DNA of 47,081 nt from Nostoc sp. FACHB-152 (GTDB taxonomy: Bacteria > Cyanobacteriota > Cyanobacteriia > Cyanobacteriales > Nostocaceae), in contig NZ_JACJRV010000055.1 of NCBI RefSeq assembly GCF_014697475.1, positions 1-47,081 of the forward strand, in the 5' to 3' direction. The notes beneath the pieces were generated by a model that did no database searches, was not told the DNA's origin, and worked only from the letters and a program-made list of their open reading frames with translations. Positions within the stretch are counted from its first letter, which is position 1; the number at the start of each line of letters is the position of its first letter. Below are positions 6,534 to 41,822 of the stretch, piece by piece. The translations under genes and the position numbers were made by a program.

Positions 6534-6589
6534 TTTAAATGTTCTATCCTGACAAAATCAATAAACTATCGTACTGAAAAAATCAGTAC
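6534..6589 (-). promoter_or_regulatory. Site A: GTAC-N11-GTAC operator with promoter, pointing left
   Basis: Reading the minus strand: GTAC at 6589-6586, the 11-bp spacer TGATTTTTTCA, GTAC at 6574-6571, then GATAGT, four free bases, and TTGATT (6561-6556) as a -35, with a weak TTTAAA (6539-6534) 16 bp further on as a -10. The centre is a perfect 15-bp inverted repeat (6563-6577 and 6583-6597), and a 10-bp outer repeat AAAATCAATA / TATTGATTTT lies at 6554-6563 and 6609-6618. Same layout as sites B, C and D. It could alternatively act as a bidirectional transcript end for the AIPR operon, but there is no T-run after the stem. Confidence 0.6.
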
Positions 6590-6620
6590 GATAGTTTCTG
6601 GAAAAATTATTGATTTTATG

Positions 6621-7016
6621 CTAAATTTCTAGCTCAAAATCTTGGTCTTGAGAGTTATCAAAGTATTTTTGTGCTGCTGAGACTCCTGATGTATCTGCCT
6701 CGAAAGGATCTGTGCCATCCTGAAAGATTTTCTGTGCCAGAGTTCTACCATCGCCATCAATATCAGACTGCATAATATATTCCAAAACCTGGGATGGCAT
6801 ACCTTGTTGAATAGCTTGAAGCAACCATGCTTTGACAAATTCAACGGACGCTTCACTATCAGACAAAACCTGCATAGTACGCTCGGCATCTTTCATAGTC
6901 ATTTTGGAAATATCTTCCACCTCAGCTTCTCGCCACACATCCCCAAAATATTCTAGATAACGCTCATCAAAATTCTGTTCTTGGGCGAATTTTACGAGTT
7001 CTTGAGCTTGTGTCAT
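6621..7016 (-). CDS. Small acidic protein encoded after the AIPR gene
   Basis: A 131-aa, very acidic, mainly helical protein. It starts 5 bp after the stop of the AIPR-type gene, so the two are almost certainly co-transcribed and probably act together. Residues 85-93 read DIDGDGRTL, which resembles the first half of an EF-hand or dockerin calcium loop, but the twelfth position is Lys rather than Glu, so calcium binding is doubtful. There is no membrane segment or signal peptide. The acidity and coupling fit an inhibitor, chaperone or immunity-like partner of the AIPR protein; this is inference from position only. Confidence 0.65.
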   Translation of the reverse strand: MTQAQELVKFAQEQNFDERYLEYFGDVWREAEVEDISKMTMKDAERTMQVLSDSEASVEFVKAWLLQAIQQGMPSQVLEYIMQSDIDGDGRTLAQKIFQDGTDPFEADTSGVSAAQKYFDNSQDQDFELEI

Positions 7017-7021
7017 ATAAA

Positions 7022-8221
7022 TTACCGTGCAAGTTTCAATTCTTCGCGTTTAGTGTTGGAGCTAACCATTTTCATCAACTGTTGATTCAGGTAACTTTGG
7101 GCGCAAACATAGAGGTTATCCCAAATCACCGGATTGCGACAGATTTTGCTGCCGATTGTATTTCCTGCCAGCTTCTCTGATATCAAATACTTACGGTAAT
7201 AATTCGTCCATAAATGCTGTAGAAAATCTTCGGCAAACTCCTCAAACGGTATTATCCAGTTGTATTTTTCATCCAAGAACACTCGGTAAGCGGCGATGAT
7301 TGGCATAGCAATATCCGCAGGCGCACCAAACCCAAATGAATACCGGCTATCAGGCAAGAGTGTATTTTTGCGTGGGTCAATTGAGGCCAGGTCAACTATT
7401 CCTTTCTTCCTTCTGGGGTTGGTAATATGTTCTTCAATTGTTTTAAACAGTCGTTGCTCAATCCACAAAGCTTTGGGCAGTAACGGCAGTAATGAGGATA
7501 GCCTTTGCCTTTCCGCCTCACTCAAGGACGGTGTATTACTAACAGGAGGGTGTTTAGTTCTGCTTTTTGAGTCTGGGTTGTATTTATTTCTATCCAGGCA
7601 GTTCATCAACTTAATTAAATGGTTAACGTTACACTGGGGACTTTTCGGCGCACCGCTTTGGTTTTGGTAATAGGCAATGCGAAATTTTATGTCTTCTTCA
7701 TGCTCTAGTTGAGCTAAAAACCGCTTGATAAATTTGTAATCACCCCTAGCATTTACTTTAGAACGCGCATCGACTGGGGCTGATGTGTTTGATGCTAGGG
7801 CTATGTCTTTGGCATCGTCTTCATTTAGCCCTATGTGAATTGTGACTTTAACACGCGCTTTGGATAGGTCATATTTGTTATTTCTAGCTTCTTCAAACGC
7901 TCTTACTGTATGTCCACCATTAACAATACCGTCGTTGCCACCTTCACAAGCTTCCAAAATTTCAAGTTCTAATTCAGTCTTATTTGCCTTAACTTTGTTG
8001 ACACACAATACAATTCCGTTACTTCGCCCAAAGAACTTTTCAGGTTCACCCGTCAATGATTCAAAGATTTGTTTGTATGTTGTACTTTTACGGTTAGGTT
8101 CCCGAATATTTGGTTCTAGCGGCAAGTCGGCAGGAAAACTATCTACATGAGCAGTAGCAATAATACAGTTGGAATTTGCATGAAAAAACTGGTCTACTTT
8201 TAATGTCCAATTCTTAGGCAT
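7022..8221 (-). CDS. AIPR-family (abortive infection / phage resistance) protein, putative
   Basis: A 399-aa soluble protein. Residues 97-107 (NDGIVNGGHTV) carry the I-(V/L)-N-G-x-(Q/H)-T signature of the AIPR family, which includes abortive-infection proteins. It is followed by VKVTIHIGLNEDDAKDIALASNTSAPVD split over 122-150, typical of the strand plus N-x-x-x-P-V segment of that family. The C-terminal half is helix-rich and less conserved. It is the first gene of a two-gene minus-strand operon with the acidic protein 5 bp downstream; the 170-bp gap upstream should hold its promoter. A role in defence against phage or competing plasmids is inferred from the family; no biochemical activity is visible. 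Confidence 0.65.
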   Translation of the reverse strand: MPKNWTLKVDQFFHANSNCIIATAHVDSFPADLPLEPNIREPNRKSTTYKQIFESLTGEPEKFFGRSNGIVLCVNKVKANKTELELEILEACEGGNDGIVNGGHTVRAFEEARNNKYDLSKARVKVTIHIGLNEDDAKDIALASNTSAPVDARSKVNARGDYKFIKRFLAQLEHEEDIKFRIAYYQNQSGAPKSPQCNVNHLIKLMNCLDRNKYNPDSKSRTKHPPVSNTPSLSEAERQRLSSLLPLLPKALWIEQRLFKTIEEHITNPRRKKGIVDLASIDPRKNTLLPDSRYSFGFGAPADIAMPIIAAYRVFLDEKYNWIIPFEEFAEDFLQHLWTNYYRKYLISEKLAGNTIGSKICRNPVIWDNLYVCAQSYLNQQLMKMVSSNTKREELKLAR

Positions 8222-13563: not shown

Positions 13564-15288
13564 ATGGCATACGCGATCGCCAGATTAAAAAAATTAAAGC
13601 GGAGTAATATTACGGGAAGTGCATCTCATACAGCCCGTGAGAGAGAAACGCCCAACGCTGACCCGACCAAAGAGAATATTAGGTTCATTGGTAGTCTTGA
13701 CTCTGAAGAAAGGCTAGAAGATTTGGTATTAGCCAAAATCACTGAACATGAGCAGAAGCGGAAGATTCGCACGGATGGAGTGTACTGTGTAGAGTTTTTG
13801 CTCTCAGCCTCGCCCAGTTACTTCCGCCCAGATTGCCCAACCCAAGCAGGATATTATGAACCCCAGAAGTTAAATGATTGGCTAGAAGCAACACACCAGT
13901 GGTTAGCTGATGAGTATGGAGAGCGCATAGTTCGGGCAGAGTTGCACTTAGATGAAGCCACACCCCATATTCATGCTTACTTTGTCCCGCTTGATGATGA
14001 GGGACAATTACGCTGTAGTCATTTTTTTGATGGCAGGCAGAAAATCCAACAATTTCAAGATTCTTACTCCCAGAGAATGCGCTCTGTTGGGCTAGAACGC
14101 GGTCTAAAAGGTAGCAGAGCGCAACACCTGGACATTAAAGACTTTTACCGCATTGTAGAACAAGGACGAGATTTAGATGTTGATACCCTCAATCCTCAAC
14201 AGTTGAAAGCCAAAGCCGCTGACCGAGACAGGGCTACTCGCTTCCTTGAAGAAATGGAGGCCACTGCCAAAGCTTTAGCTCAAGAAAACGAACTGTTACA
14301 ACAACGTATTCGGCAACTACAGCAAGATAACCAGAAATTAAGACAGCTTGCCGAATCCAGAATGGATTTATCACTTGTTGATGTCGCCTGGGAGTTAGGG
14401 CTATGGCGTGAGCAGCATGGTTGGGTTGGGCAGAATCACATCATTAATATAGATGGCGACAAATTTACTGACCTCGATCCTGGTTCTCCTTTGGGGGGCA
14501 ATGGTGCGATTGATTTAGTGAAACACGTTAATGAGTGTAACGAAGCTCAAGCTTACGCATGGTTACGTGACCGATTTGGTGAAGCTGGCGCACAAAAAGC
14601 CGCGATTGCCCACGCTCGAAAGATAACTACTCTTATTATCCAAACCCAAGCGCGTCCCCAATTCCAGCGACCAGTTGAGGATAAAGCCCAATGGACAACA
14701 GTTTCTAACTACCTTACCCAAAAACGGAGCATCCCTAAAGATTTTGTGGAGGTTCTGCACAACGCTGGACTGGTTTATGCTGATCAACGAAAAAATGCTG
14801 TGTTTGTGATGCGGAATCTTGAGGGGATTCCTCAAGGAGCCTTCTTGCAAGGGACACAGAACAATACTTTTAAAGGCTATGTGAAAGGGACTTTTAGGCG
14901 TGATAGCTGGTTTCATTTTCACTTAGGCGGACAGCCGACTGATGAAGTCAAAAAAGTAGTTCTGTGTCAGTCTCCGATTGATGTTATCTCCTTTGCCATG
15001 CTGGAATATCAAGCTCAGGGTGATGTGCCTCCCAATAGAACCCTGTATATGGCTGTTGATGATCCCAATTGCTTGCCTGTAAAACAATTACAAAATATTT
15101 CTCATATACAAGTGGCATTTGGTAACGATAAAACCCAACAAGCTGCGGCACAGACTGTTAAGGAATTGTTGCCACAGTCCAAAAAGCTTAAGTGCAAAGC
15201 TAGTAATTGGAATGAGGAATTAGTTAATTTTTCTCCTCAATTGCAACATAATCATTCCTCAAATCAAAACCATGAATTAGAGTTGTAA
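13564..15288 (+). CDS. MobV-family relaxase fused to a toprim/primase-like domain
   Basis: 574 aa. The N-terminal 200 residues are a Mob/Pre relaxase: motif I region H22-x-x-R with NADP(31-34)...N38, and the metal-binding motif HLDEATPHIHAYF (128-140) with H128, H135 and H137. Residues 220-265 form a coiled coil. The C-terminal part (about 270-560) resembles the DUF3991/toprim architecture of plasmid primase-like proteins: GSPLGGNGAIDLV (307-319) and VLCQSPIDVISF (466-477). In toprim proteins the residue before S-P-I-D is usually Glu; here it is Gln469, so catalysis there may be lost. It would nick oriT and could help prime the transferred strand. An upstream hairpin region is the likely oriT. 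The ribosome-binding site is weak. Confidence 0.85.
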   Translation: MAYAIARLKKLKRSNITGSASHTARERETPNADPTKENIRFIGSLDSEERLEDLVLAKITEHEQKRKIRTDGVYCVEFLLSASPSYFRPDCPTQAGYYEPQKLNDWLEATHQWLADEYGERIVRAELHLDEATPHIHAYFVPLDDEGQLRCSHFFDGRQKIQQFQDSYSQRMRSVGLERGLKGSRAQHLDIKDFYRIVEQGRDLDVDTLNPQQLKAKAADRDRATRFLEEMEATAKALAQENELLQQRIRQLQQDNQKLRQLAESRMDLSLVDVAWELGLWREQHGWVGQNHIINIDGDKFTDLDPGSPLGGNGAIDLVKHVNECNEAQAYAWLRDRFGEAGAQKAAIAHARKITTLIIQTQARPQFQRPVEDKAQWTTVSNYLTQKRSIPKDFVEVLHNAGLVYADQRKNAVFVMRNLEGIPQGAFLQGTQNNTFKGYVKGTFRRDSWFHFHLGGQPTDEVKKVVLCQSPIDVISFAMLEYQAQGDVPPNRTLYMAVDDPNCLPVKQLQNISHIQVAFGNDKTQQAAAQTVKELLPQSKKLKCKASNWNEELVNFSPQLQHNHSSNQNHELEL

Positions 15289-15331
15289 ATCACCAAAAGT
15301 CAAGCAACTTTAGTACGGAAATTTTCAGTAC
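15276..15331 (-). promoter_or_regulatory. Site B: GTAC-N11-GTAC operator with promoter, pointing left
   Basis: Minus strand: GTAC (15331-15328), spacer TGAAAATTTCC, GTAC (15316-15313), TAAAGT, four bases, TTGACT (15303-15298) as -35, 16 bp, TCTAAT (15281-15276) as -10. The core is also an inverted repeat AACTTTAGTAC / GTACCAAAGTT (15306-15338, 10 of 11 pairs). The element is 53 bp upstream of the plus-strand AAA ATPase gene, yet the promoter half points into the 3' end of the relaxase gene, implying either an antisense transcript or an operator used in both directions. Confidence 0.55.
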
Positions 15332-15383
15332 CAAAGTTTGTGAGAAATTTTTGGGATGCCATTTATTATCTGATTGATGTTGT

Positions 15384-17012
15384 ATGACTAAAACCATGAA
15401 TTCAACATTGATCACCCAAGTATTTGACCTGATAAACCTAAATAATAAGTTGATTGCTGTAGAATCTCCCTTGCAAGAAAGGCTAAAATTACTCAACAAC
15501 ATCGCCAATCAATGCTTTATACAAAATATCCCTTGCTACCTGTGGACATTAGAAGATGATGCGTTGAACCAGTTAATCATTAATGGGCAAGATTTAGATT
15601 TACAACCTGTAACACAATATCAGGCGATCGCCAAAAATCAACGCGAACATTATTTTGAGATTCTACGTTTTTGGAAAACAACGCATTTACAAGGCATTTT
15701 GATATTAGAGGGGATATTTCCCTGGTTAGGAGAAACCTCCGACCCCGATTTTTTCTTAACTGCTGAGTGGATCAAGTCTGCACTCATTAACCTCAAACTC
15801 TACAACCGTAACGAAGAGAAGACTGCTATCCTTCTAGGGTCAAACGCTTCTGTGTCATCTGACATTGCAGCAGAAATACCAATTGTCATTCAACAACTAC
15901 CAACTGTTGAAGAAATTAGCTTGAGCTTGTCTAGTCATCTGCCCAATTACAGCCAAACAGAAATTTACTCTCTAGCGATCGCATCTGCTGGGATGTACTT
16001 GGCGGATATTGAGTATGGTATTAGTCAAGCTATCTCTTCTGGGTTTTCTAATACTCAAGAACTGACCCAAAAACTCTCCGCTTATAAAATCAGCTTGTTC
16101 AAGCGAGTTTACAATATCGAGTTTCTACAGCCACCAAACATCTCAGTTGGTGGATTAGAACTGATGCAGGAGGCATTTAAAAAATACAAACGCCTTTTGA
16201 CTCCACTGGCGAAAGCTTATAATCTTCGGCTTCCCAAAGGGATTTTACTGATAGGCCCTCCCGGTACAGGTAAATCTTACTCGGCTAAAGCTTGTTCTTT
16301 CCGTTTGGGTCTGCCATTGATTATTTTGGAGTGGGGCAGCTTCCGCAGTTATGGCAATGAGGCGGAATATAAGCTCAAGAATTTACTCGCCCTGGTTGAT
16401 CGGCTTAATCGTATTATTTTATACCTTGACGACTTTGATAAGGGGTTCGCCGGAGATGATGATTTATCTAGGCGACTGGCGGGGATGTTATTAACCTGGA
16501 TGCAGGAGCGAACTAGTGAAGTTTTAATTCTGGCATCAGTCAACCGCTTGGATTGGCTACCACCCGAATTGACTAGAAGCGGTCGCTTTGATGACATTTT
16601 TAAAGTTGACTTGCCTAATCATGGAGAACGCCACTCCATCTTCAAAATTTACCTAGCCAAATTTGACAAGCGTTTTTGTAATGGAGATGGCTTTACCGAA
16701 GACGAATGGCGCAGATTGCTCAAAGCCACACATCGCTGTGTTGGTGCTGAGATTCAAGCACTTGTAGAACGAGCCGCTATTTCAACTTTCTGCAAAATGT
16801 TCCCTGACGATGTTCTACCACAAGGCGAACTACCTCCACTATCCATTACATTGTCGGCATTACTGGATGCGAGAAAGAATATGAATCCTTTGGCCATCCG
16901 TGAAGCTGACCGGATTGAAAGCATAAGAAATAAAGCTGATCTACAGGGTCTACCATCCAGCCCGATTGATTCTTCTATATATAGTGTTGGCAATGTCGAT
17001 ATTTTTGGGTAA
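15384..17012 (+). CDS. Ycf46-like AAA+ ATPase
   Basis: 542 aa. The N-terminal half (1-240) resembles the Ycf46 N-terminal region, with the recurring YLWTLEDD and LLGSN segments. The AAA core follows: Walker A GPPGTGKS (291-298), Walker B IILYLDD (344-350, with the unusual D-D instead of D-E), sensor 1 ASVNRLDW (384-391) and arginine finger region SGRFDD (399-404). Ycf46-type proteins are widespread in cyanobacteria and plastids; their role is poorly defined, with links to carbon acquisition in some species. A plasmid copy between the relaxase and a DUF192 gene may remodel a plasmid protein. The D-D Walker B could slow hydrolysis. The stop is 3 bases before the next gene, so they are co-transcribed. 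Confidence 0.85.
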   Translation: MTKTMNSTLITQVFDLINLNNKLIAVESPLQERLKLLNNIANQCFIQNIPCYLWTLEDDALNQLIINGQDLDLQPVTQYQAIAKNQREHYFEILRFWKTTHLQGILILEGIFPWLGETSDPDFFLTAEWIKSALINLKLYNRNEEKTAILLGSNASVSSDIAAEIPIVIQQLPTVEEISLSLSSHLPNYSQTEIYSLAIASAGMYLADIEYGISQAISSGFSNTQELTQKLSAYKISLFKRVYNIEFLQPPNISVGGLELMQEAFKKYKRLLTPLAKAYNLRLPKGILLIGPPGTGKSYSAKACSFRLGLPLIILEWGSFRSYGNEAEYKLKNLLALVDRLNRIILYLDDFDKGFAGDDDLSRRLAGMLLTWMQERTSEVLILASVNRLDWLPPELTRSGRFDDIFKVDLPNHGERHSIFKIYLAKFDKRFCNGDGFTEDEWRRLLKATHRCVGAEIQALVERAAISTFCKMFPDDVLPQGELPPLSITLSALLDARKNMNPLAIREADRIESIRNKADLQGLPSSPIDSSIYSVGNVDIFG

Positions 17013-17015
17013 TTT

Positions 17016-19072: not shown

Positions 19073-19250
19073 TACAAAAAATCCGAAAAAAGTCAATAGT
19101 CTTTGAATGATGACACTGAGGACGTTGCTGAGATATTTATACTTGCACTTAATTACAGATATCTTTACAGTAGCTTAAAAGCTTGATATTAGAGTATCTT
19201 TTTCAGGTATACGTAGGCAAATAAAGTAATAAATAACATCCAGTACGAAA

Positions 19251-19307
19251 GTACTGTTTTTTTCAGTACGAAAGTAGGTCGATTTTGATATTAACAGACC
19301 CAATAAT
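19251..19307 (+). promoter_or_regulatory. Site C: operator and promoter of the type IV secretion operon
   Basis: GTAC (19251-19254), spacer TGTTTTTTTCA, GTAC (19266-19269), GAAAGT, four bases, TCGATT (19279-19284) as -35, 17 bp, AATAAT (19302-19307) as -10. Transcription would start near 19314, giving a 30-base leader before the AGGAG and ATG (19344) of the VirB2-like gene. The 13-mer CAGTACGAAAGTA occurs twice directly repeated at 19241 and 19264, so an extra half-site lies upstream. Confidence 0.65.
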
Positions 19308-19343
19308 GTGCTTATTAACAACAACATCGTTCAGGAGAACGAG

Positions 19344-24069: not shown

Positions 24070-24089
24070 ATGCTTAAGAATCCAAGATA

Positions 24090-29684: not shown

Positions 29685-29734
29685 TTTTCTAGAAACAGCA
29701 GGAAATTTATAGACTTTCCATTTCCAATATCTTT

Positions 29735-31519: not shown

Positions 31520-31553
31520 CTTTTTCCGGAAATTTATATCATCTGTAACAGCC

Positions 31554-32030
31554 ATGAAAATGACTATTCAAGAATCTGCTATTGATGATTTCAATATGAT
31601 TCACCAACTCTCTCAAAATAGAAAGATAGGTATGAGCAGCTTCCCGGAAATTGAGCCGACTATTTCTCAAGTTATTACTAATTTTCAGAATTTAGCGCAA
31701 AAAAGACCAAAACTTAGAAAGCCGGGAATTTATACCCAAATCAGTTTAAAGAATATTTACTTTCATGTATCTTATGAATCCTGCCATCAAATTGTTACTC
31801 AATATATCCAAGGCATCTGTTGGCATGATTTACAGTATGTTTGTTTTTTTGATATTCAGCATCATAATATTTACATTCATATTATCTTTAATCGAGTTAC
31901 TCCTGAAGGCAATCTCATTGACATTAGATGCCTTGGTGCTACATGGCAACAATATGAAGTTTTGCGTAAATCCTGTTCTCAGATATTTAATAGTTCTCAG
32001 AGTTTTTGTTTTCAAAATCCCTGCTTTTGA
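31554..32030 (+). CDS. Stand-alone MOBP-type relaxase core, short
   Basis: 158 aa. The central region matches the HUH relaxase core of the VirD2/MobA (MOBP) family: YFHVSYE (62-68), QYIQGICWHDLQYV, and the histidine motif DIQHHNIYIHIIFNRVTPEG (split: DIQHHN, IYIHIIFNRV, TPEG), which fits H-x-D-x-x-x-(H)-I-H-x-x-x-N-R-V. The usual full domain is over 200 aa and is followed by a long C-terminal part that is missing here. The N-terminal nicking tyrosine is not obvious; Y60 or Y64 could serve. It directly follows the coupling protein gene. It may be a remnant, an accessory DNA-binding protein or a working minimal relaxase, in addition to the MobV relaxase. Confidence 0.65.
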   Translation: MKMTIQESAIDDFNMIHQLSQNRKIGMSSFPEIEPTISQVITNFQNLAQKRPKLRKPGIYTQISLKNIYFHVSYESCHQIVTQYIQGICWHDLQYVCFFDIQHHNIYIHIIFNRVTPEGNLIDIRCLGATWQQYEVLRKSCSQIFNSSQSFCFQNPCF

Positions 32031-32104
32031 CTGATTTGGCTCTCTTGCCTAATTTTAGGTAATTAGGTAACTACATATTCTTAAATTTTTTAGTTTTAAT
32101 AATT

Positions 32105-35100
32105 ATGTTTGATGAGCGACATTTACAACTAACTTCTGCTTACGCTAGAAGCACTCAACACTTTGTTAGAGCAGTTATTTATCCTCTGGCTAACTTTCTC
32201 TATAAATCAATTGAAGAAGCTATTGATTTAAAATGCAAAATTGAACTAGGGCAAGATACTTATGCATTGACTCCTGATGGTAATAATGGCTGGAAATGGT
32301 CAAAGCTTGAGCGAGAAGTTGTTGAGGAGGAATTTGCCGAACTCGAAGAATTATTAGAAGATTTATTACCGCCTCTTTTACCAGGGAATAATACAACACC
32401 TCCTAATTTTCCTCCCTATGATTCCCCGCCTCTTTTGTCAGGGAATAATACAACACCTCCTAACTTTCCTCCCTATGATTCCCCTCCACTTGTACCAACT
32501 CCCGATTCTCCACTTAATATTCCCCCTGCTGCTACATCGCTTGAGTTCATGGCTGTACCATTAGAACGTCAAAATGCTTGGTTTTACGCACAAAACAATT
32601 ACCAACCACTGGAAGAAAAGCAAGATATTACAGATTCACCCCCAGTTAATAATAGTTTTCATTTAGATGAAGTTGCAGAGGAAGTTGAACCTCCATCTAA
32701 ACTAGAACTTGAAGCAGCCAAAGAATTTGACAAAGCAGAGGAAGTCGCACCTTCATCCGAATTAGAGCCTCATGATGAATCATCTTCTTTACTTGCCCAG
32801 CCAACTTTTAGTACCTCTGTTTCCCCTGCTGTAATTGAGGTTTGTCCACCTCACATAGACTTAAATCATTGGCAAGAGCTAATCAACGGTAGTGCGATCG
32901 CGCCATCTATTGCCGAGTTGAATTTCAAAAGTCTGCACTTCGACGCAATAGAGCAAGAGCATGAAGCGTGGGAATATTTATTGTACAGCACTCAGTTAGA
33001 ACGTCTTAACACCGGACGGCTCAAGCAAGAATTACTTTATACATACGCTCATATTGAGCATGGGGGTTGGTGGTGCAGTGGTGGGGTTAACCCGACTTCC
33101 TTTGCCGATTTAAAAGAGGGAGAACAACCAGCACAGAAAATTTGGGGTTGCTACAAACCTAACCAGCCAAGAGAAAAAATTGAGAAAAAAAACAGTTCCA
33201 AGGGCTATTTCAAATTTCTTCAAGATAGGAATACTCCTCAAGAGCCAAAAAAGACAATCGCTCAACCCAAGAAGTTTATCAAATATGAACATCCACCAAA
33301 AACGGAAACTAGTTTTTTTCTGTTAGAAGTCCCAAATGGCATTGCCGAACAAATTTACCTCAAATCTGAAGTTAGCCCCAGTGATAGCGATCGCGCCAGT
33401 GGATTTTGGTATTGCGTCTGGAAGCACAATATCCCCATTACAATCACTGAAGGAGCCAAAAAAGCTGCTTGTTTACTGAGTCAAGGTGAAGCTGCTATTG
33501 GTGTGCCAGGGATTTACAACGGCTATCGTAAGCAAGATGATGGTTTCAATCTAGCTTTACATCCTGAGTTAGCTGTCTTTGCAACTAAAGATCGCCACTT
33601 CAAAATCTGTTTTGACTACGAAACCAAACCCAAAACCAAACGCAATATCAATATTGCTACTTACCGCACTGGTCAACTTTTAGAAATGGCTGGGTCTACG
33701 GTTAGTGTCGTTCAATTACCAGGGCCTCCTAAAGGTGTTGATGATTTGATTGTGGCGCATGGGGCAGATGCTTACTTTAAAATCTCTGCTGCTTCTGTAC
33801 CTCTTGACCAATGGTGGCAAAACAATACTCCGCCTGATTTTCGTTTAACGATTATCAAGAAGGATGGCACTGTCAAAACGCTTTATGAACAAAAAGGAGA
33901 CGGTACTGTGACAGCAACTCCTGACAATCTAACAGAGCAGCCCATTGATGAATTTCTGAAACTTCCTCCTGCTAAATCGCCTACACATTTCCTAGTTCCT
34001 ACTACACCAATCATAGATGCAGAATTTGTTGATACTGATCTATTTGAAAGTGAAATCCCCTCTATCCCTCAAACACTAGAACAGACTGCCTCTTGGTCTA
34101 GGAAACAAGAGGTTACGCTTTACCAACAGAATTTTTTTAGAAAAAATTTAGAGGCTAAAGAAAATCAACAAATAGCTTCTGCCGCTTATGCACTGCTGAA
34201 GAAATATGGAACTGAGCCACCTGATATTATTAATGAACAGGCTGAAGGTAAAACTTATCAAGCTGATGCTTTTATTATTAAAAATCATGGAGACAAGTAC
34301 AGTATTTATCGTCGCCATGATCAACAACAGTTGATGACTTTTCAAGCAGATCAGTGGGGTCATGTTGGTAATATTAAACTTTCTGACGCTAATTCCTATG
34401 AGCAAAAGTCGAAACAGCAAATTAGTATTTTACCTATTGAAAGACAAGAGTTTTTATTAGTTGCTGATTATCTTAAAAGCGGAAAACCATTACCTTCTGT
34501 CGATGAAGACCCGCGCACTATCGCTTCAAGCCTTGCCTCACTCTCTCCTGGTGGTACACACAATCTTTTAGAAAGTTTCAAACAAGCCGAGGTTCTCAAA
34601 ATTCTTACTCAGACTTTGACAACTTTTCAGCGTGATGAGTTAACTCTCAGCAATTATCACATCCGTTACCAAGATAACTTTAGTGAGCATACATCTATCT
34701 TACAACTCTTCAAAACTGAACATGATGGCACTGGTAGAGAAGCGGTTCGGTTTGAACTCAAACAAACTGACACTGGCATCACTCACCAAGTTATGAAAAT
34801 GGCCATTACTGAAGCTGACTTAAATAAATTAAGGTTATTAGCACAAAAGCTTGATATTCAACGAACTTTAGCAACAATGGCTGCCAATTTCTCCAATGCT
34901 ACTCGTGATGTTGACTTACCTGTTCATCCTCATATCTCAAAACAATGGCAGAACTTAGATAATCGCCAACCATCACCGGACTTTTCCACACCAAATACTC
35001 AATCCTCAGCATCAGTAGAGCGACCGATAAAACGTCGTTCTAACGCTCAAGATACTCCTGACGTTCAACCTCAAAACCACCAATCTCAACTTGATAATCT

Positions 35101-35779
35101 TGCTATTCCTATTCATCCTCAACTTGCCGACTACTGGCAACAGCTAGAGTCAAACAATTCTTGGGCAACTGTAGCCCTGCATGGTCATGCTCAATTGCAA
35201 GAAAAAATTCAACTGTCTGGAAAGCTGACCATTGGTGAACAACGCGAACTCTATCAAAAAATCCAGAATCAAGCTTGGTATGAAATACAACAAAATGGAC
35301 AAACCTCGATTACACTTCCTCCTTTAGCTGGGATTATTCATGATTTACGCACACACTTAGCAGGGCAAACTGATGTACAAACCTACGATTCTGATCCAGT
35401 TCGTGATCCTCATCTGCCTCTGCATCAGGACATTGCCACTCATTGGCACAACTTAGAACAGAATAAAGCTTGGAAGAGTGTTGCAAATCAATATAATTAC
35501 CCTCTGCGCGACAAACTTGAAAAAACTGGTAAACTCTCTATTGGCGAACAACGCGAACTTTATTACAAGATTTTGCTTCAAAGTCAAGTTGAACAACATA
35601 ATCAGGGCAAGACTGATATTTCTCTCCCTCCACTTGAGGATATTCTTCAAGATTTGATGGCACAGCGTCGTCAATTTATTGACAATACTTATACACCCAA
35701 AACCGAAATTTATTCTCAACAATCAACAGCCCAGTCATACGAGCCGAATCAGTCTACTTCTGATGACATCCAGTTGTGA
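32105..35779 (+). CDS. Large DUF3854/toprim-like protein (plasmid primase or replication-related)
   Basis: 1224 aa. Residues 93-135 hold two copies of a 19-residue proline-rich unit starting GNNTTPPNFPPYDSPPL (57-bp direct repeats at 32384 and 32441). The central part (about 430-560) is a DUF3854 toprim-like domain: E449 in ITEGAKKAACLL, D504 in CFDYE, and GVDDL with D546/D547. These acids are where toprim catalytic residues lie. The C-terminal 300 residues hold repeats of about 103 aa (starting near 938, 1001 and 1104: LPVHPHIS, IPIHPQLA, LPLHQDIA), each with a KL(T/S)IGEQRELY core in the last two. DUF3854 proteins are common on cyanobacterial plasmids and probably prime or process DNA. It may act in transfer replication. 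Confidence 0.75.
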   Translation: MFDERHLQLTSAYARSTQHFVRAVIYPLANFLYKSIEEAIDLKCKIELGQDTYALTPDGNNGWKWSKLEREVVEEEFAELEELLEDLLPPLLPGNNTTPPNFPPYDSPPLLSGNNTTPPNFPPYDSPPLVPTPDSPLNIPPAATSLEFMAVPLERQNAWFYAQNNYQPLEEKQDITDSPPVNNSFHLDEVAEEVEPPSKLELEAAKEFDKAEEVAPSSELEPHDESSSLLAQPTFSTSVSPAVIEVCPPHIDLNHWQELINGSAIAPSIAELNFKSLHFDAIEQEHEAWEYLLYSTQLERLNTGRLKQELLYTYAHIEHGGWWCSGGVNPTSFADLKEGEQPAQKIWGCYKPNQPREKIEKKNSSKGYFKFLQDRNTPQEPKKTIAQPKKFIKYEHPPKTETSFFLLEVPNGIAEQIYLKSEVSPSDSDRASGFWYCVWKHNIPITITEGAKKAACLLSQGEAAIGVPGIYNGYRKQDDGFNLALHPELAVFATKDRHFKICFDYETKPKTKRNINIATYRTGQLLEMAGSTVSVVQLPGPPKGVDDLIVAHGADAYFKISAASVPLDQWWQNNTPPDFRLTIIKKDGTVKTLYEQKGDGTVTATPDNLTEQPIDEFLKLPPAKSPTHFLVPTTPIIDAEFVDTDLFESEIPSIPQTLEQTASWSRKQEVTLYQQNFFRKNLEAKENQQIASAAYALLKKYGTEPPDIINEQAEGKTYQADAFIIKNHGDKYSIYRRHDQQQLMTFQADQWGHVGNIKLSDANSYEQKSKQQISILPIERQEFLLVADYLKSGKPLPSVDEDPRTIASSLASLSPGGTHNLLESFKQAEVLKILTQTLTTFQRDELTLSNYHIRYQDNFSEHTSILQLFKTEHDGTGREAVRFELKQTDTGITHQVMKMAITEADLNKLRLLAQKLDIQRTLATMAANFSNATRDVDLPVHPHISKQWQNLDNRQPSPDFSTPNTQSSASVERPIKRRSNAQDTPDVQPQNHQSQLDNLAIPIHPQLADYWQQLESNNSWATVALHGHAQLQEKIQLSGKLTIGEQRELYQKIQNQAWYEIQQNGQTSITLPPLAGIIHDLRTHLAGQTDVQTYDSDPVRDPHLPLHQDIATHWHNLEQNKAWKSVANQYNYPLRDKLEKTGKLSIGEQRELYYKILLQSQVEQHNQGKTDISLPPLEDILQDLMAQRRQFIDNTYTPKTEIYSQQSTAQSYEPNQSTSDDIQL
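32384..32497 (+). repeat. Tandem 57-bp repeat inside the DUF3854 gene
   Basis: Two adjacent copies (starting 32384 and 32441) that are nearly identical at the DNA level and differ at only a few bases, encoding a proline-rich linker. The near identity shows a recent duplication, likely by slippage. Confidence 0.8.
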
Positions 35780-35837
35780 GCTTAACAATTAAAATTAATA
35801 GATATTAACTCATGCAATCTCAGATTGAATTTTTACT

Positions 35838-36641
35838 ATGCAGCATCATTCATCTTCTTCAATCTTAGAAACCATTAGCAGTATTAATCGTGATACTAAT
35901 ATTTCCCATAACATGATGGCCTACAGATTAGGGCTACTCATGGAAAAGCATTCTTCACACATACAACCGACTGTTAGCCTCGACACCAATGAACGCGAAC
36001 ATCTTTTAAAAGAAGCCAGAACAATATTTTCTTTATCTAATACTACTCAAAACATCGAAGATTACAGGCAGTCTCTTAAAGATAAATACTACAAAGAATA
36101 TCTCCAAAAATTTGAGATTAATCAACCAATCTCAGATGCTTCAGCACTCAATAATTCCATTAGAGTTGATAATTTAATTGCTGATAAGAAAAAAGTATTT
36201 TTACATCAAATAATTGAAAGGGAGCAACGCCAATTACCTAAAGATACCGAACCCAAAATCCAAAGTGAAAATCACGCTTCTACACCTGCTGAGGGTGAAG
36301 CTATCAATAAGTCTATTATTGGGTCAATTTTGAATACCCTAGTCAATATGGGTCAGGATACTGATAACCAAGGGCGTATTTATGACGGCATTGCTTACCA
36401 ATTACAGTTGTGGATGAAAGAAGGAATTCAGCTTCTAAATGTTAACCGCAAAAACGGCTCTCCTTATAATGCTTTTACTGCTGTCAAACAAGACACTCAA
36501 GCACAGTTCCAAATTCTCCAAAACAATCTTTCGCAAGAAGAATCACAACGAATTATCAACTTTGATCGCGTCCATAATACTCAACAATCACATATTCACC
36601 CTACTATTGACCCAGATGACAATGCCGAACTGGGTGATTAA
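35838..36641 (+). CDS. Hypothetical protein with internal duplication, downstream of the DUF3854 gene
   Basis: 267 aa, hydrophilic, helix-rich. The N-terminal segment SILETISSINRDTNISHNMM followed by AYRLGLLMEKH resembles the later segment SILNTLVNMGQDTDNQGRIY followed by AYQLQLWMKEG, so it looks like a tandem of two related domains. No membrane segments. It follows the DUF3854 gene by 59 bp, and one of the DUF3854 C-terminal features (short helical dyads) is similar in style, so it may be a binding partner. I do not recognise a family. It is convergent with the small membrane protein gene, overlapping it by 4 bp at the 3' ends (36638-36641). Confidence 0.55.
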   Translation: MQHHSSSSILETISSINRDTNISHNMMAYRLGLLMEKHSSHIQPTVSLDTNEREHLLKEARTIFSLSNTTQNIEDYRQSLKDKYYKEYLQKFEINQPISDASALNNSIRVDNLIADKKKVFLHQIIEREQRQLPKDTEPKIQSENHASTPAEGEAINKSIIGSILNTLVNMGQDTDNQGRIYDGIAYQLQLWMKEGIQLLNVNRKNGSPYNAFTAVKQDTQAQFQILQNNLSQEESQRIINFDRVHNTQQSHIHPTIDPDDNAELGD

Positions 36642-36880
36642 CGAAAGTACCCGGCTACTAGCCCTAGAAAGAACATTCCTCCGATTAGATAACGCTTAAG
36701 CATTCTTCCTAATCCTGAAAATGGTGCAATTATTGCCGCTAAAACTATATAGAACATCACTTGATAAATATCTTGACTACCAAGTTTGATGATGGCTGCA
36801 ATCACTAAACAAGCAAAAATTAACCATTCTACTACTGCTTCTATCTTGTCCCAAAGCTTGACATCATCTAGATAGCGCAT
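36638..36880 (-). CDS. Small membrane protein in the histidine kinase operon
   Basis: 80 aa with two or three hydrophobic helices (VVEWLIFACLVIAAIIKLG, QVMFYIVLAAIIAPF, IGGMFFLGLVAGYF) and short polar loops. It starts within the end of the histidine kinase gene, overlapping it by 13 bp in another frame, so translation is coupled. A membrane partner or input module for the otherwise soluble kinase is plausible; no family recognised. Confidence 0.6.
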   Translation of the reverse strand: MRYLDDVKLWDKIEAVVEWLIFACLVIAAIIKLGSQDIYQVMFYIVLAAIIAPFSGLGRMLKRYLIGGMFFLGLVAGYFR

Positions 36881-37632
36881 CTTCTAGCCTCTGGTATTTT
36901 TGGACAAATCTTACCATCCCCTAAGCCATAAACACCGTTATTATACGGGAATACAATACTAAACTTTGTTCCTTGCCCTACTATTGAATTCACTTTCATC
37001 TTCAATCCATGTGCATGAGCTACCATCAGAGCAATATATAACCCTAATCCCATTCCTGATTGATTTCTTACTTCATTTTCTCTTGCTCTCCAAAATGGCA
37101 GGAATATTGTAGATATTTGTTCGGCAGCAATCCCAATTCCTGTATCTTCAATTTCTATAAGCAAATCATCTCCTTGAGCCAGCAAACGTAAGAACACTTC
37201 TCCCCTATTGGTATACTTGATAGCGTTCTGTAATAAATTACTTATCATCCTACTTATATTTACCATGTCGCCTCTGACTTGCGTTCCGTGTTTATATGAC
37301 GAACTGGCCTCATAATGTAGTTTTAAAGATTGAGATTGAGCTATCGGACAAAACTCTATACTCATTTTTTTTAGAAATACTAACATATCAAACTGCGTAA
37401 CCATTGAGGAGTTAATCTCATAGAAAGCTGTGCTTTTAGCCTCTATCAGATTAGCTCCCCTATTATTCCTTTCTAATATTGCTATCAATAATGGTCTAAT
37501 CTCATCTAATGATCCCCCGTACAACCCATCAATTAATTGATCCAGAATTATAGATGTCCCCTTGAAAACGTTATGAATATCATGGAGCAAAGCTGATAAA
37601 TTCGGATCTCTAGCGAGACTTTCTGTTTGCAT
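36868..37632 (-). CDS. Soluble sensor histidine kinase
   Basis: 254 aa. Dimerisation/phosphoacceptor motif LLHDIHNVFKG with H17, then N box NLLQNAIKYTN, G1 box EDTGIGIA, F box region FLPFWRA, and G2 box GMGLGLYIA. All core elements are intact, but there is no sensor domain or membrane segment, so input must come from another protein, perhaps the overlapping small membrane protein. It is divergent from the response regulator at 38071, which is its likely partner. The start ATG at 37632 is followed directly by the kinase core. Confidence 0.85.
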   Translation of the reverse strand: MQTESLARDPNLSALLHDIHNVFKGTSIILDQLIDGLYGGSLDEIRPLLIAILERNNRGANLIEAKSTAFYEINSSMVTQFDMLVFLKKMSIEFCPIAQSQSLKLHYEASSSYKHGTQVRGDMVNISRMISNLLQNAIKYTNRGEVFLRLLAQGDDLLIEIEDTGIGIAAEQISTIFLPFWRARENEVRNQSGMGLGLYIALMVAHAHGLKMKVNSIVGQGTKFSIVFPYNNGVYGLGDGKICPKIPEARRCAI

Positions 37633-38070: not shown

Positions 38071-38727
38071 ATGATTCGGTTAGTAATTATTGAAGATGAA
38101 GAACTAATCCGCCTGGGCATTTCTACAGCTGTCAATCGAGAATCGAACATGACAATGGTTGGTGCTGCTTCTACTGGTTCTGAAGGTATCCAACTTATTG
38201 AGCAGTTAAATCCTGATCTAGTTTTAGTTGATATTGGTTTGCCTGACATTACTGGCTTAGATGTTATTGACCAAATCAAGCACCACGCTAATCTGAAAAT
38301 TATTGTCTTGTCTTCTCATTCCTCTCAAGATATTGTTCAGGCTGCTTTAGAAAAAGGTGCTAACTCTTATATCCTCAAAAAAAATAATGCAGGGCTAATT
38401 ATTGAAGCCATTAAATCTACTTATGACAACAAAAACTTTTTTGACCCTGACATTGCTAAAAGAAGTTTTCAAAGTTTTTTTCAGCCTCAGAGAATTAAAG
38501 GTAAATGTTATCAAGATCGCCTCACTAGAACCGAAATCAAAATCATCCGCCTTATGTCCGGCGGCTTATCTAATAAAAAGATAGGCGAACAGATGTTTAT
38601 TACTGAAAGTACCGTTAAAGGTCATAGCACTAACATTTTTTCTAAACTTGGTGTTGGCGATCGCGTTAATGCCATTATCAAAGCTAAAGAGCTTGGCTAT
38701 ATCGAAGACTCTTTAAAAGTCAGTTAG
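38071..38727 (+). CDS. NarL/LuxR-family response regulator
   Basis: 218 aa from the ATG at 38071; the frame is open to a TTG at 38041 but the protein-like start is MIRLVIIED. Receiver domain with acidic pocket E8-D9-E10, phosphoacceptor D54 (LVDIGLP), S81-S82 and K103 (YILKK). C-terminal helix-turn-helix of LuxR type (LTRTEIKIIRLM, NKKIGEQMFITESTVKGH, FSKLGVGDRVNAIIKA). Partner of the divergent soluble kinase at 36868-37632. LuxR-type regulators bind dyads of about 18-20 bp, so this is one candidate for the protein that binds sites A-D. It abuts the convergent gene at 38728 without a gap. Confidence 0.9.
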   Translation: MIRLVIIEDEELIRLGISTAVNRESNMTMVGAASTGSEGIQLIEQLNPDLVLVDIGLPDITGLDVIDQIKHHANLKIIVLSSHSSQDIVQAALEKGANSYILKKNNAGLIIEAIKSTYDNKNFFDPDIAKRSFQSFFQPQRIKGKCYQDRLTRTEIKIIRLMSGGLSNKKIGEQMFITESTVKGHSTNIFSKLGVGDRVNAIIKAKELGYIEDSLKVS

Positions 38728-39330
38728 CTACTTTCTCCTGCGCTGCATTTGGATCAGGCAGTAACCTTGCAATTTATTCTCCTGCTGGCAAGCTTCTATC
38801 GCTTGTTCATTTTTTAAGATTAATTGATACATTTGTTTACCTCTTGGGGATTTTGCCCATTCTAAAATGCTTAAATCTTGCGTTGATACTACTACTGACT
38901 GGCTTGTTCCTACATTCGATACGATATTCCACGTTGTTAGAGAACCTAATAATGCTCCAACTGCCATCACTACTCCACACACAGCTGATACTGGCCCTAT
39001 TCCCCAGCCGTTCATATCTATCTTTAACCCTGATGCTTTAGGCTTTAACTTTTTAACTTCATCTCGCACAGCCGAAGAGACTACTGTATAGTGCATTGAT
39101 TGTGCTGTTTTAGTTGTCTTTTCCAACTTCTGATCTATCAATGTCGCCCAAGCTTCCACCATTGCCTCCATTCTTGCCTGGAGGTCAATCATTGTCTCCT
39201 CATATCTGCCCATTGTTGCCATCACTTGAAACATCGGATCATCTTTAGTAATCCCTATGTCATGGCACAGTTGTGCTATCCGCTTTTGCTCTGCTTCTGA
39301 ATATCCTTTTAATATTTCCTTGGCCGTCAT
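38728..39330 (-). CDS. Membrane protein with coiled coil, last gene of the ParA-like operon
   Basis: 200 aa. The N-terminal 60 residues are polar and helical (CHDIGITKDDPMFQVMATMG, RYEETMIDLQARMEAMVEAW), followed by a probable coiled coil, a Gly-rich membrane helix (GPVSAVCGVVMAVGALLGSL at about 113-132) and a C-terminal, probably external, domain of 65 residues with two cysteines. It overlaps the start of the preceding operon by 4 bp (its ATG at 39330 lies in the 3' end of the P-loop gene). A related type is common on cyanobacterial plasmids, possibly DUF6753, but I am not certain. No catalytic motif is seen. Confidence 0.6.
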   Translation of the reverse strand: MTAKEILKGYSEAEQKRIAQLCHDIGITKDDPMFQVMATMGRYEETMIDLQARMEAMVEAWATLIDQKLEKTTKTAQSMHYTVVSSAVRDEVKKLKPKASGLKIDMNGWGIGPVSAVCGVVMAVGALLGSLTTWNIVSNVGTSQSVVVSTQDLSILEWAKSPRGKQMYQLILKNEQAIEACQQENKLQGYCLIQMQRRRK

Positions 39331-40229
39331 CTAGTCATCCCCAAATATTTGCTGGCTGAAGAATTATCTACTGAATCAAAGAAATGTTTAAGCCATCTAT
39401 ATATATAACTTCTGTAAATCACATATATTGATGTATCTTGATAGCAACTAGAATAAGGTTTTCCTAATTCTTCCATCGCTTGATAATGATCTCGATGCAG
39501 GGCTGTCAGTTCTACCTCCGCACCCCCTATGAAAGGCAGTTTACTCTGCATTGTCCGGCAGTATTCTCTAAAACTACAGTCAAAATGTTGATTTTTTACT
39601 ACTACATAGTTGGCGTTATTTGTGGCTGTATCTATTAATTGTTGCAAATAATCTAGACAGTCTTTCCTGTGAGAAATTGGTTGGACAAATGTTAATCTCC
39701 ATCCATATACAACTAGTAAATCTAACAATTGGCTTTTGTCGATATACTCGCAGATTTTATCTACATACTGCCCTGGCATATCCACCAGAATAATTTTTAA
39801 ATCCTGATTATTTAAATCTTTGAGAATTGTGTCTGTCTCACCTCCAAAAAAGTCTAGATTTTTAATTGGCACTAAATTTTCATACGCTTTTAATCTATTG
39901 CGTTGGTCGTGATTATACAACTGAATTTTCTGCCCTTGGGCTTGGTAACGCTCAACCAGTAATTTAGTTACTGTAGACTTTCCTACACGAGAATCACCTA
40001 CTGTCATAATCATTCTTTTGTCATGAATAGGGTATGGGGTGTAGGGGGTTGGGGGTAGTGTTGGCGTAGCCTCTCGTAGAGAAGACTGCATTGGTGAGGG
40101 TGACAAGGCTCCTCCAATGTTATCGTCTTGAAAAGATGGGGCTTGTATCCCAAGGGTGCTTGGAGCTATCTCTTCACCTACACCCCACACCCTGCCCCCT
40201 ACACCCTGTTCTTCACAGTTCAACTTCAT
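39327..40229 (-). CDS. P-loop (ParA-like) protein with repeat-derived N-terminus
   Basis: 300 aa from the ATG at 40229. Walker A is GDSRVGKST (78-86), without the signature lysine (K-G-G-V-G-K-S/T) of true ParA. VDMPGQYVDKI gives a Walker-B-like Asp, so it looks like a MinD/ParA-fold ATPase with altered activity. Residues 1-72 are encoded by cyanobacterial short repeats (GTAGGGGGTTGGGGGT and GGCGTAGCCTCTCGTAGAG), so they are probably not functional. The natural start could be the ATG at 40013 or 40007. It overlaps the preceding ParA-like gene by 17 bp, which supports the 40229 start as the original, with a later in-frame insertion. Confidence 0.7.
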   Translation of the reverse strand: MKLNCEEQGVGGRVWGVGEEIAPSTLGIQAPSFQDDNIGGALSPSPMQSSLREATPTLPPTPYTPYPIHDKRMIMTVGDSRVGKSTVTKLLVERYQAQGQKIQLYNHDQRNRLKAYENLVPIKNLDFFGGETDTILKDLNNQDLKIILVDMPGQYVDKICEYIDKSQLLDLLVVYGWRLTFVQPISHRKDCLDYLQQLIDTATNNANYVVVKNQHFDCSFREYCRTMQSKLPFIGGAEVELTALHRDHYQAMEELGKPYSSCYQDTSIYVIYRSYIYRWLKHFFDSVDNSSASKYLGMTR

Positions 40230-41070
40230 CTAGCCCTAATATTCCTTTTACTGGTTTAAGTTGTTCTTTGAAATCTTTGAGCCAGTATGATACTCTTCCT
40301 TTGACAGCCGGATATTCTATCTGTTCTGTCCCTTGCCTAAATGTTAGGTCATTTGCATCCAAGTGATCGTAGGCGTGTTCTATTAAATCCGGCATATTTA
40401 TATCGTAAAATTTTAGACTTTGAGATTTTAATTTTTTCTTAATATCTTTGATTTCTTCTGATTTATCGTATCTGGTAAATTGCTGTTCTTTTCCAAAAAA
40501 TAAGTTTTTTACTACTAGATAATCTACTTTATTATCGCAAAATTCATAGAGATTAATTAGCTGCTTTACTGAATCACTTATCCGGCTAATAACTACTACC
40601 ATCGTTACTCTTGTATCGTAATCTTCCTCTAGTATCCTCAGAAACTCCATTCTTTCTATAAACTCTTGTAATATTCTTCTAGATTGTGGAGGTAATTCTA
40701 GTAAAAATAGTTTCTCCGGTTGTGCTTGTTTCCCATCTACTATTTTGGGAAATATTTTTCCTCTTAAGTCATTGAAAAATATATCTATACTTCCACTTTC
40801 AAAAATATCTAAAGCTTCCAGGTTACACTGTTCTCCGTAAAATCTTAATAATTGGGAATTAGAACTGTCTGCATCAAATCCTATAAATTTTACGCCTCCA
40901 TCTATATAAGTTTGAACTAATCCTCTAGCAAATGTAGATTTTCCTACCCCTCCTTTATCTCCCGTTACAATTATTAATCTTCGCTGATATTTTTTTAGAC
41001 TTACTATGGTTGCATCCTTATTTTCCTGCCCTTGATTATTTGTTTCTGTTTTATTAATAGCATCTGTCAT
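40213..41070 (-). CDS. ParA/MinD-superfamily ATPase
   Basis: 285 aa from the ATG at 41070, chosen for its upstream AAGGAGA; the frame is open to a TTG at 41103. Deviant Walker A VTGDKGGVGKST (with the signature lysine after GD), FIGFDADSSNSQLL as the switch/DNA partition motif, and LLELPPQSRR as a Walker B-like region. Usually such ATPases position cargo or partition plasmids with an adaptor. Here no ParB-like gene is adjacent; its neighbours are a Bro-N-like protein (upstream) and the divergent P-loop protein (overlapping). The C-terminal part shares general layout with its neighbour, suggesting an old duplication. Confidence 0.8.
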   Translation of the reverse strand: MTDAINKTETNNQGQENKDATIVSLKKYQRRLIIVTGDKGGVGKSTFARGLVQTYIDGGVKFIGFDADSSNSQLLRFYGEQCNLEALDIFESGSIDIFFNDLRGKIFPKIVDGKQAQPEKLFLLELPPQSRRILQEFIERMEFLRILEEDYDTRVTMVVVISRISDSVKQLINLYEFCDNKVDYLVVKNLFFGKEQQFTRYDKSEEIKDIKKKLKSQSLKFYDINMPDLIEHAYDHLDANDLTFRQGTEQIEYPAVKGRVSYWLKDFKEQLKPVKGILGLDEVEL

Positions 41071-41106
41071 TTTTTTATCTCTCCTTTTCATAACATCTGT
41101 CAAAAT

Positions 41107-41439
41107 CTAAATAAACTCTTGCTGAAAAATTGGCATAACTTTACTTCTTACCCATTGCATAAATTGTCTAACTAAAACGGGTTCTACTATACTTGTTAAG
41201 TTATAAATAGCCAGAGAGTTTAAAGTCTCAATCGTTACTATCCCCGAATTACAATTTAAAACAACTGACCTTTTTTTCGACTTGATTTTTAAAGGTATTA
41301 TTTTTTCTTGTTTCAGTTCTGGTATAAGTATTTGAAATACATCTTTAGCAAATATTTCTAGCCCTTCAGGTGTCGCTATCACACGGACAGTATTATTTGA
41401 TGGATGTTCAAATTCCCAAAACTGCCATACTTTTGTCAT
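41107..41439 (-). CDS. Bro-N-like (antirepressor-type) domain protein
   Basis: 110 aa. The segments WEFEHPSNNTVRVIATPEGLE and FAKDVFQIL, later IETLNSLAIYNL, and the ending RQFMQWVRSKVMPIFQQ follow the layout of the Bro-N DNA-binding domain (V-R-V-I, F-x-A-K-D-V, F-x-x-W-V-x-S-x-V-x-P). The match is by pattern. AAGG lies just upstream of the ATG at 41439. First gene of the four-gene ParA operon. It may be the operon regulator or the DNA adaptor for the ParA-like ATPases. It starts 155 bp from regulatory site D, which points the other way. Confidence 0.6.
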   Translation of the reverse strand: MTKVWQFWEFEHPSNNTVRVIATPEGLEIFAKDVFQILIPELKQEKIIPLKIKSKKRSVVLNCNSGIVTIETLNSLAIYNLTSIVEPVLVRQFMQWVRSKVMPIFQQEFI

Positions 41440-41822
41440 TGACCTTATTCATAGATTTTTATCTATAAATATCTAGCTATATCCTCACCATTTTTCAGAT
41501 TCAGCAATTTGTTTTGAGTTTTTTAGCTTCTAGATTTTTATAGCGTTATTACTATGTATGACATATCTAGCCATTTCCCAGGAATCGCTAAAAGTACTGT
41601 TTTTTTCCGTACTAAAGTCTCTTGATTTTTATTAGCCGTTAGTTCTACAATATTCGGTTAAATTTCTATCATCTCTAAGTCTTATCAATTACCAACGTAA
41701 GTTCTCATGACAATAAAAGCCACCAACTTTTGATCGGCTATTGGAAAGATGTATTAGTCCCCTGGGAGAGTTATAACTATCCCGTGATTTCAATGCAGTC
41801 GAACAGTAAAAGGAGCAAGCCG
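41440..41822. other. Divergent control region between the ParA operon and the Arr gene
   Basis: Contains regulatory site D (41594-41651) and an AT-rich 150-bp stretch next to the Bro-N-like gene that should hold its promoter. No other gene seen. GC content rises toward the Arr gene from about 41750. Confidence 0.5.
41594..41651 (+). promoter_or_regulatory. Site D: GTAC-N11-GTAC operator with promoter, upstream of Arr
   Basis: GTAC (41594-41597), spacer TGTTTTTTTCC, GTAC (41609-41612), TAAAGT, four bases, TTGATT (41622-41627) as -35, 18 bp, TACAAT (41646-41651) as -10. Transcription would start about 165 bp before the Arr start codon, giving a long leader. The same layout as site C. Confidence 0.6.

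Follow-up and report, generated by a model that had tools for sequence, protein, structure and literature searches.

We found that four copies of a two-dyad element in the window, a 47,081-nucleotide contig of Nostoc sp. FACHB-152 (NZ_JACJRV010000055.1 of assembly GCF_014697475.1, forward strand), are very probably the operator-promoters of one regulon in a family of Nostocales plasmids. Related plasmids have the four elements, sites A to D, at the same four positions, which suggests that transfer genes are co-activated by a single regulator encoded on the plasmid, in all likelihood a sensor-kinase/response-regulator pair. An initial annotation of this DNA had already described the four elements, and each was present where it had been placed and with the letters it had been given. 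Its size of 36 bp proved too small, as the outer half-sites had been missed. Alignment with relatives revealed that each element consists of two 14-bp dyads, approximately AGTAC-N4-GTACT, with centres 23 bp apart and an A/T tract between them. The inner GTAC half-sites were the most constant part, and the outer half-sites were more variable. Among 58 dyads from 29 sites of 8 plasmids, which are homologous and hence non-independent, positions 10 to 13 of the left dyad were G in 29, T in 27, A in 19 and C in 27 of 29, and positions 2 to 5 of the right dyad were G in 28, T in 29, A in 29 and C in 27. The last block that had been proposed, (T/C)GA(T/C)TTT, was conserved only in part: on the side that the annotation had read, it was exact at 1 of the 7 A sites, 6 of the 7 B sites, 3 of the 7 C sites and 6 of the 8 D sites. 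Site A, which lies downstream of an open reading frame (ORF) at 6621-7016 and upstream of a small gene, doubles as a 15-pair inverted repeat in the window plasmid.

The 19-bp core GTACTGWWWWTTTCMGTAC had four exact matches in the window. Allowing up to 3 mismatches gave 7 window matches compared with 0.23 expected, three of them being the same palindromes on the opposite strand. When we scanned the whole genome (8,618,724 bp in 190 contigs, one of which is the window), the only zero-mismatch matches were the four window sites, all on the plasmid contig. We also applied a held-out 38-bp model, trained on 25 sites from other plasmids with the window excluded. This model scored C and A at 39.8 each, B at 36.3 and D at 27.2; the next unrelated stretch, a fifth weak match at 43417, scored 7.7, below the maximum of 14.0 over 100 dinucleotide shuffles. 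The element thus exceeds chance in copy number and is specific to its replicon, as expected of a regulon.

Conservation and promoter geometry

We scanned six complete Nostocales plasmids (358, 122, 299, 304, 366 and 337 kb; 1.79 Mb in total) with a seed set that contained sites from two of these plasmids and from the window. All six carried the element at the same four places as the window, before the small gene (A), the AAA gene (B), the first gene of the type IV secretion system (T4SS; C) and the Bro-N-like gene (D), so the conservation that the annotation had proposed as a check was indeed found. Each plasmid had four strong sites (score of at least 23) except that of ATCC 53789, which had three; its site C contains a 1-bp insertion, fell below the model score and was recovered by alignment. 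Among the matches listed, everything else scored 14.2 or lower, apart from the same sites on the other strand. Plasmid A of Anabaena (Trichormus) variabilis ATCC 29413 has all four sites. Site C lay upstream of T4SS genes in the window and in eight aligned plasmid records, which supports its earlier placement in front of a secretion operon; in C057, the T4SS genes behind it are broken up by transposons. In the three plasmids aligned with the window at site B, mobV and the ATPase gene flank this site.

For site D, we examined 61 loci or plasmids in which the sequence upstream of a Bro-N-like gene was readable, and 44 of them had a site above the cut-off score of 10. The other 17 comprised 16 loci of one divergent group and Nodularia; a regular expression picked up an altered D element in 8 of the 16 divergent loci, which lack a model match. 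Of 217 genomes from the family, 25 matched a strict A/B-type pattern, at 44 places in total, whereas the reversed pattern used as a control matched none. All 25 belonged to the 43 genomes with a Bro-N-like gene, and none of the remaining 174 had a match. The window genome falls outside the 25 because its sites deviate from the strict pattern. Viral contigs, scanned twice with strict patterns, yielded no match, and a brief look at 30 kb of the distant A. variabilis plasmid C (regulator at 37.5%) yielded no related element. On that plasmid (L246:14992-18198, MOBP relaxase) a row of four genes includes those for a response regulator and DUF6753; no Bro-N-like gene is annotated, and the record was not among the matches listed in the Bro-N-like search.

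We searched for -10 hexamers with a sigma-70 matrix whose frequencies reflect general knowledge, testing 42 offsets counted from where the right inner half-site begins. The best forward mean fell at offset 38 for A, B and C and at 37 for D, with mean scores of 3.7, 4.1, 1.7 and -0.1, respectively. The -10 spacing is thus fixed, as in a regulon, with a low mean score at D, and the earlier description of one repeated operator-promoter element with constant spacing and activator-like geometry stood. In pC052_B, a member of the divergent group, a hand count gave an offset of 39, about the same distance as elsewhere. Because the -10 is placed at -12 to -7, the dyads are centred near -42.5 and -65.5, which would be an activator-like layout. 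A, the right side of B and C have poor -35 regions (for example, TAGTTC, TAGTAA and TCGATT); at D the -35 reads TTGACT or TTGATT in five of seven sequences (the window and the six complete plasmids) and TTGTTC in two.

On the reverse side, the best offsets were 38 for A (mean 4.6), 37 for B (mean -0.6), 19 for C and 45 for D, and -10-like hexamers are kept on both sides of A, B and D. The pattern TATGN[CGT]ATA[GC] occurred left of D in 23 of the 44 D-site loci, with its hexamer at offset 39 in 22 and at 38 in one. One group has just 32 bp between D and the start of the Bro-N-like gene, less than an ordinary leader would need. Site B had been read as facing left. Its left side is conserved (TTGACTTT in six of seven sites, followed by a -10 resembling TCTAAT that falls within the 3' end of mobV, in antisense), but the rightward -10 (TATTAT or TAATAT, at the same offset as those of A and C) outscores the leftward one, with means of 4.1 versus -0.6, and we rejected B as a leftward-only promoter.

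Candidate regulators and other explanations

The window encodes a response regulator and a sensor histidine kinase beside the T4SS, so that a plasmid-encoded two-component system occurs together with a shared box. The best PDB relatives of the regulator were VraR entries, which, with its receiver and GerE domains, marks it as LiaR/VraR-like; it scored below the NCBIfam equivalog cut-offs. Both genes are present in all six complete plasmids (in MS1 the kinase match begins at residue 62), which supports the annotation's choice of this LuxR-type protein as a candidate. On balance, we favour a conjugation regulon activated by the plasmid two-component system, with the response regulator as the probable binder. 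The histidine kinase would phosphorylate the LiaR/VraR-type regulator (38071-38727), two regulator dimers would bind the adjacent dyads and then recruit RNA polymerase, and this recruitment would switch the transfer-related genes on jointly. A fuller proposal is more tentative and somewhat less likely than not: conjugation of this widespread Nostocales plasmid family would be signal-gated, with the kinase and the LiaR/VraR-type regulator, in place of an OmpR-type VirG, using a near-symmetric, bidirectional two-dyad operator to co-activate the genes for the T4SS, for the AAA and DUF192 proteins, for the small membrane protein and for the Bro-N/ATPase row. Eight loci (L205-L208, L210, L211, L213 and L239) keep the regulator and have no kinase homologue in the available stretch.

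The letters of the dyads may fit such a binder. In the left dyads, the C, T, A and G of a CTnnAG core were present in 24, 24, 21 and 29 of 29, and in the right dyads in 27, 13, 23 and 28 of 29; by this core, the dyads resemble LiaR/CesR sites more than LexA boxes. According to the available excerpts of the literature, the CesR motif is TCAGHCTnnAGDCTGA and LiaR binding requires an A-stretch adjoining the palindrome (PMC4447274), the pneumococcal VraR motif is TMMRYCTRARGWYKGA-N31-34-transcription start site (TSS) (PMC11034029), and the motif lies 32-34 nucleotides from the TSS (PMC6560143). With predicted starts, our predicted -10s are consistent with the published 31-34 bp. D-site types also go with recognition-helix types of the regulator. 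We compared distances between D sites with those between neighbouring proteins in two sets drawn from the 61 rows, one of 32 loci (D score >10, duplicates and partial genes removed) and one of 23 (D score >28 and a kinase match). D-site distance correlated most closely with the regulator (r = 0.956 and 0.950), followed by the Bro-N-like protein (0.755 and 0.433) and the first ATPase (0.431 and 0.227).

Several observations weigh against the response regulator. The flank beyond D tracks it nearly as well (0.88 and 0.91 in sets of 32 and 24 loci), so the correlation is not specific to the site and gives only mild support. With a fixed reading direction, the 32-locus value for the D site fell to 0.84, below that of DUF6753 (0.87), and at B the regulator (0.73), AAA (0.71) and mobV (0.71) were about equal predictors of the site. 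Because the flank and the local genes at B correlate alike, shared history accounts for much of the relationship, and we did not retain it as co-evolution, which the flank control weakens. ATCC 53789 (at A and B) and L200 (at B) have a different recognition helix and yet keep canonical sites. D itself, with its good -35 and low forward -10 mean, is unlike a typical activator-dependent promoter. Moreover, the regulator and the Bro-N-like gene mostly co-occur, in 45 of the 49 loci with at least 5.5 kb beyond the Bro-N-like start. Among the four without the regulator, L226 and L235 retain a diverged D element although no regulator is found in the available stretch, L245 has a Bro-N-like fragment and a weak D site, and Nodularia pUHCC0039a, a very divergent plasmid, has a transposase gene at the regulator's place and no D-type site. 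Finally, in the plasmid that we take to be that of Cylindrospermum NIES-4074 (L209; G039:C3:128135-133307), an interruption of about 4.5 kb follows residue 73 of the regulator, yet A is intact, and B and C score 45 and 32. D there lacks both inner GTAC cores and B lacks one, and because A is intact while D and B are damaged, this loss does not decide the matter.

A serious rival binder is the Bro-N-like protein encoded beside D, which could be an autoregulated master regulator and possibly a repressor; we consider this rather unlikely. Its gene lies directly beside D in all six complete plasmids, is present in every genome with A/B-type sites, and accompanies the diverged D elements of the two regulator-less loci L226 and L235. 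BRO-N is a DNA-binding domain. An AlphaFold2 model of the protein (mean predicted local distance difference test score of 81), compared with viral models by Foldseek, had an unnamed protein as its first match (E = 5.8e-4), with BRO N-terminal domain proteins next (E of 9.2e-4 at best, probability 1.00, template modelling score of about 0.5), which bears out the Bro-N-like label though no Pfam family exceeded the cut-off. Against this, identical D sites stand beside Bro-N-like proteins that are 45% to 56% identical to the window's, the partial correlation of the protein with the D site given the regulator was 0.25 (n = 32) or 0.04 (n = 23), and Foldseek found no PDB match with E <0.001. Some Bro-N-like proteins (L066:8171-8995, L067:12321-13151 and L069:19995-20807) are extended at the C terminus by about 165 residues, and no Pfam match to this extension exceeded the cut-off. 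A two-contig genome, probably Halotia branconii, has a second Bro-N-like gene (G076:C1:4704204-4704521), perhaps in an integrated conjugative element. The annotation had also named a ribbon-helix-helix protein (43804-44370) as a possible regulator. We rejected it, as four of the six plasmids, all carrying the four sites, have no homologue and the other two have only weak ones (25% and 29%).

Binding by the host LexA, which would place the transfer genes within the SOS response, appears improbable. The dyads do share the GTAC-N4-GT(A/T)C outline of cyanobacterial LexA boxes, the left dyad of C (19242-19255) matches Mazon's box RGTACNNNDGTWCB exactly, as that box is quoted in the available text of PMC3091678, and a box, AGTACTAATGTTCT, starts 48 bp before the host lexA match. 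The pattern, however, had 100 matches on both strands of the Nostoc genome versus 66 for a reversed control, so the single match at C says little. In 33 published boxes, out of 48 in the table of PMC3091678, position 9 is T in 32 and position 6 is A in 19, compared with 2 and 1 of the 58 plasmid dyads; the other 56 dyads have a different letter at position 9. The doublet is a further difference, as the available part of that paper describes no fixed doublet for LexA. On the letter at position 9, we rejected LexA as the binder, for which the box AGTACWNWTGTACT with its T there had been expected. A different regulator, perhaps chromosomal or an unrecognised plasmid one, is also very unlikely. 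The confinement of all zero-mismatch core matches in the genome to the plasmid contig favours a plasmid-borne regulator.

That the elements are recombination or centromere-like partition sites seems highly unlikely: they are palindromic and dispersed, a tyrosine recombinase gene adjoins C in the window, and a ParM-type partition gene is annotated in the backbone of relatives, but a -10 at the same offset in every class would be odd for such sites, and UHCC 0302 and ATCC 53789 have no recombinase gene beside C. It is more improbable still that they act as RNA hairpins, terminators or attenuators. In the window, site A shows strong folding (z = -6.31) with a terminator-like score, but B is moderate (z = -2.35), C and D (z = -1.25 and -1.37) barely beat shuffles and there was no Rfam match, and we rejected the terminator or RNA-element reading on the weak folding of C and D together with the absence of an Rfam match.

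Genes beside the sites

We infer activation, the limits of the operons and the side used at A, B and D from sequence. Site C would act on the T4SS genes, the right side of B on the AAA/DUF192 genes and A on the small gene; transcription from the left side of B would run antisense into mobV. D would act on the Bro-N/ATPase genes, on the gene on its opposite side, or on both. The T4SS row starts with an ORF at 19308, within which an ATG at 19344 is preceded by AGGAG. Coordinates are collected in Table 1.

Site D had been assigned to the Arr gene, which occupies its far side in the window. We found no Arr homologue in any of the six complete related plasmids and rejected Arr as a conserved target; D is instead conserved upstream of the Bro-N/ATPase/ATPase/DUF6753 genes. 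The Arr protein itself (41730-42542) contains two Arr-ms stretches in tandem. In 13 of the 44 D-site loci, the gene beyond D, facing away and within 190-713 bp, encodes a protein with an LGAC lipobox, and L209 retains one further fragment of it. Matches to this protein also lay upstream of the Bro-N-like gene in all 16 loci of the divergent group, and in pNLP1 and pC052_C its gene is divergent from site C instead. This conserved protein has about 220 residues (L065:14554-15222 and L196:9276-9932), and we would guess that it is an entry-exclusion or VirB7-like lipoprotein. Elsewhere in the window, 8392-10590 encodes an ABC transporter with an N-terminal FHA domain, and UHCC 0302 and Nodularia have an ABC-domain gene at a similar place.

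Table 1. Elements, putative promoter hexamers and genes in the window
Feature	Coordinates	Strand	Remark
Site A, putative two-dyad operator	6562..6599	-	Orthologous site in 6/6 complete plasmids
Site B, putative two-dyad operator	15303..15340	+	Between MobV relaxase and AAA ATPase genes
Site C, putative two-dyad operator	19241..19278	+	Upstream of type IV secretion operon
Site D, putative two-dyad operator	41584..41621	+	Bro-N-like operon left, Arr right
-10-like TTTAAA of site A	6534..6539	-	TTTAAAC in 7 A sites compared
-10-like TATTAT of site B	15364..15369	+	Toward AAA/DUF192 genes
-10-like AATAAT of site C	19302..19307	+	AANAATGTGC in all 9 aligned sequences
-10-like TACAAT of site D	41646..41651	+	Rightward
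TATGTCATACATA, possible extended -10 of site D	41553..41565	-	Toward Bro-N-like operon
Response regulator, receiver and GerE (LuxR/NarL) domains, proposed binder	38071..38727	+	Nearest solved structures VraR
Sensor histidine kinase (HATPase_c), divergent from response regulator gene	36868..37632	-	
Bro-N-like small protein, first gene left of D, rival binder	41107..41439	-	
Rest of row left of D: two P-loop proteins and DUF6753 protein	38728..41103	-	
Small protein, proposed target of A; inspection shows one hydrophobic stretch	5969..6415	-	
MobV relaxase (Mob_Pre)	13564..15288	+	
AAA ATPase (15384-17012) and DUF192 genes, proposed target of B	15384..17570	+	
Type IV secretion/coupling-protein gene row, proposed target of C	19308..36641	+	

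Relation to known regulons

VirA/VirG of Agrobacterium Ti plasmids is a plasmid two-component system that activates several T4SS operons via a repeated box upstream of the -35; its regulator VirG belongs to the OmpR type, and the vir box consists of one short motif. The system proposed here would be similar in placing a T4SS under plasmid two-component control through a shared box. By contrast, its proposed regulator is of LuxR/NarL type and its operator is a doublet of dyads. Because the regulator has a GerE domain rather than being OmpR-type, we do not count the system as a VirG-type vir regulon; it would be a variant plasmid two-component regulon, in which the regulator is LiaR/VraR-like and the operator a doublet. 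In the conjugative IncP plasmids, the operator networks of KorA, KorB and TrbA likewise have the same operator recurring at several promoters of the backbone, but these proteins are repressors and their boxes are different.

With LiaR, VraR and CesR of Firmicutes, as far as the available portions of PMC4447274, PMC11034029 and PMC6560143 describe them, the plasmid element would share a regulator family and, in many dyads, a palindrome with a CTnnAG core, besides an adjacent A/T stretch, and the published spacing puts their site near -40 to -42, close to the predicted position of the plasmid element. Those systems are stress regulons of the chromosome whose motifs each hold a single palindrome, whereas the plasmid element has two dyads 23 bp apart, transfer genes as targets and different outer letters. 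Among the matches listed in open-licence PubMed Central (PMC), we found no description of the regulation of these plasmids, and the available text of PMC8600333 does not mention promoter, two-component or response regulator.

If the proposed regulon is real, no earlier description of a conjugation switch in cyanobacterial plasmids would exist within the open-licence literature searched. The regulator, now named, its operator and the four target promoters would then be open to direct test in a strain such as A. variabilis ATCC 29413, and filamentous cyanobacteria would have a natural on/off handle on gene transfer.

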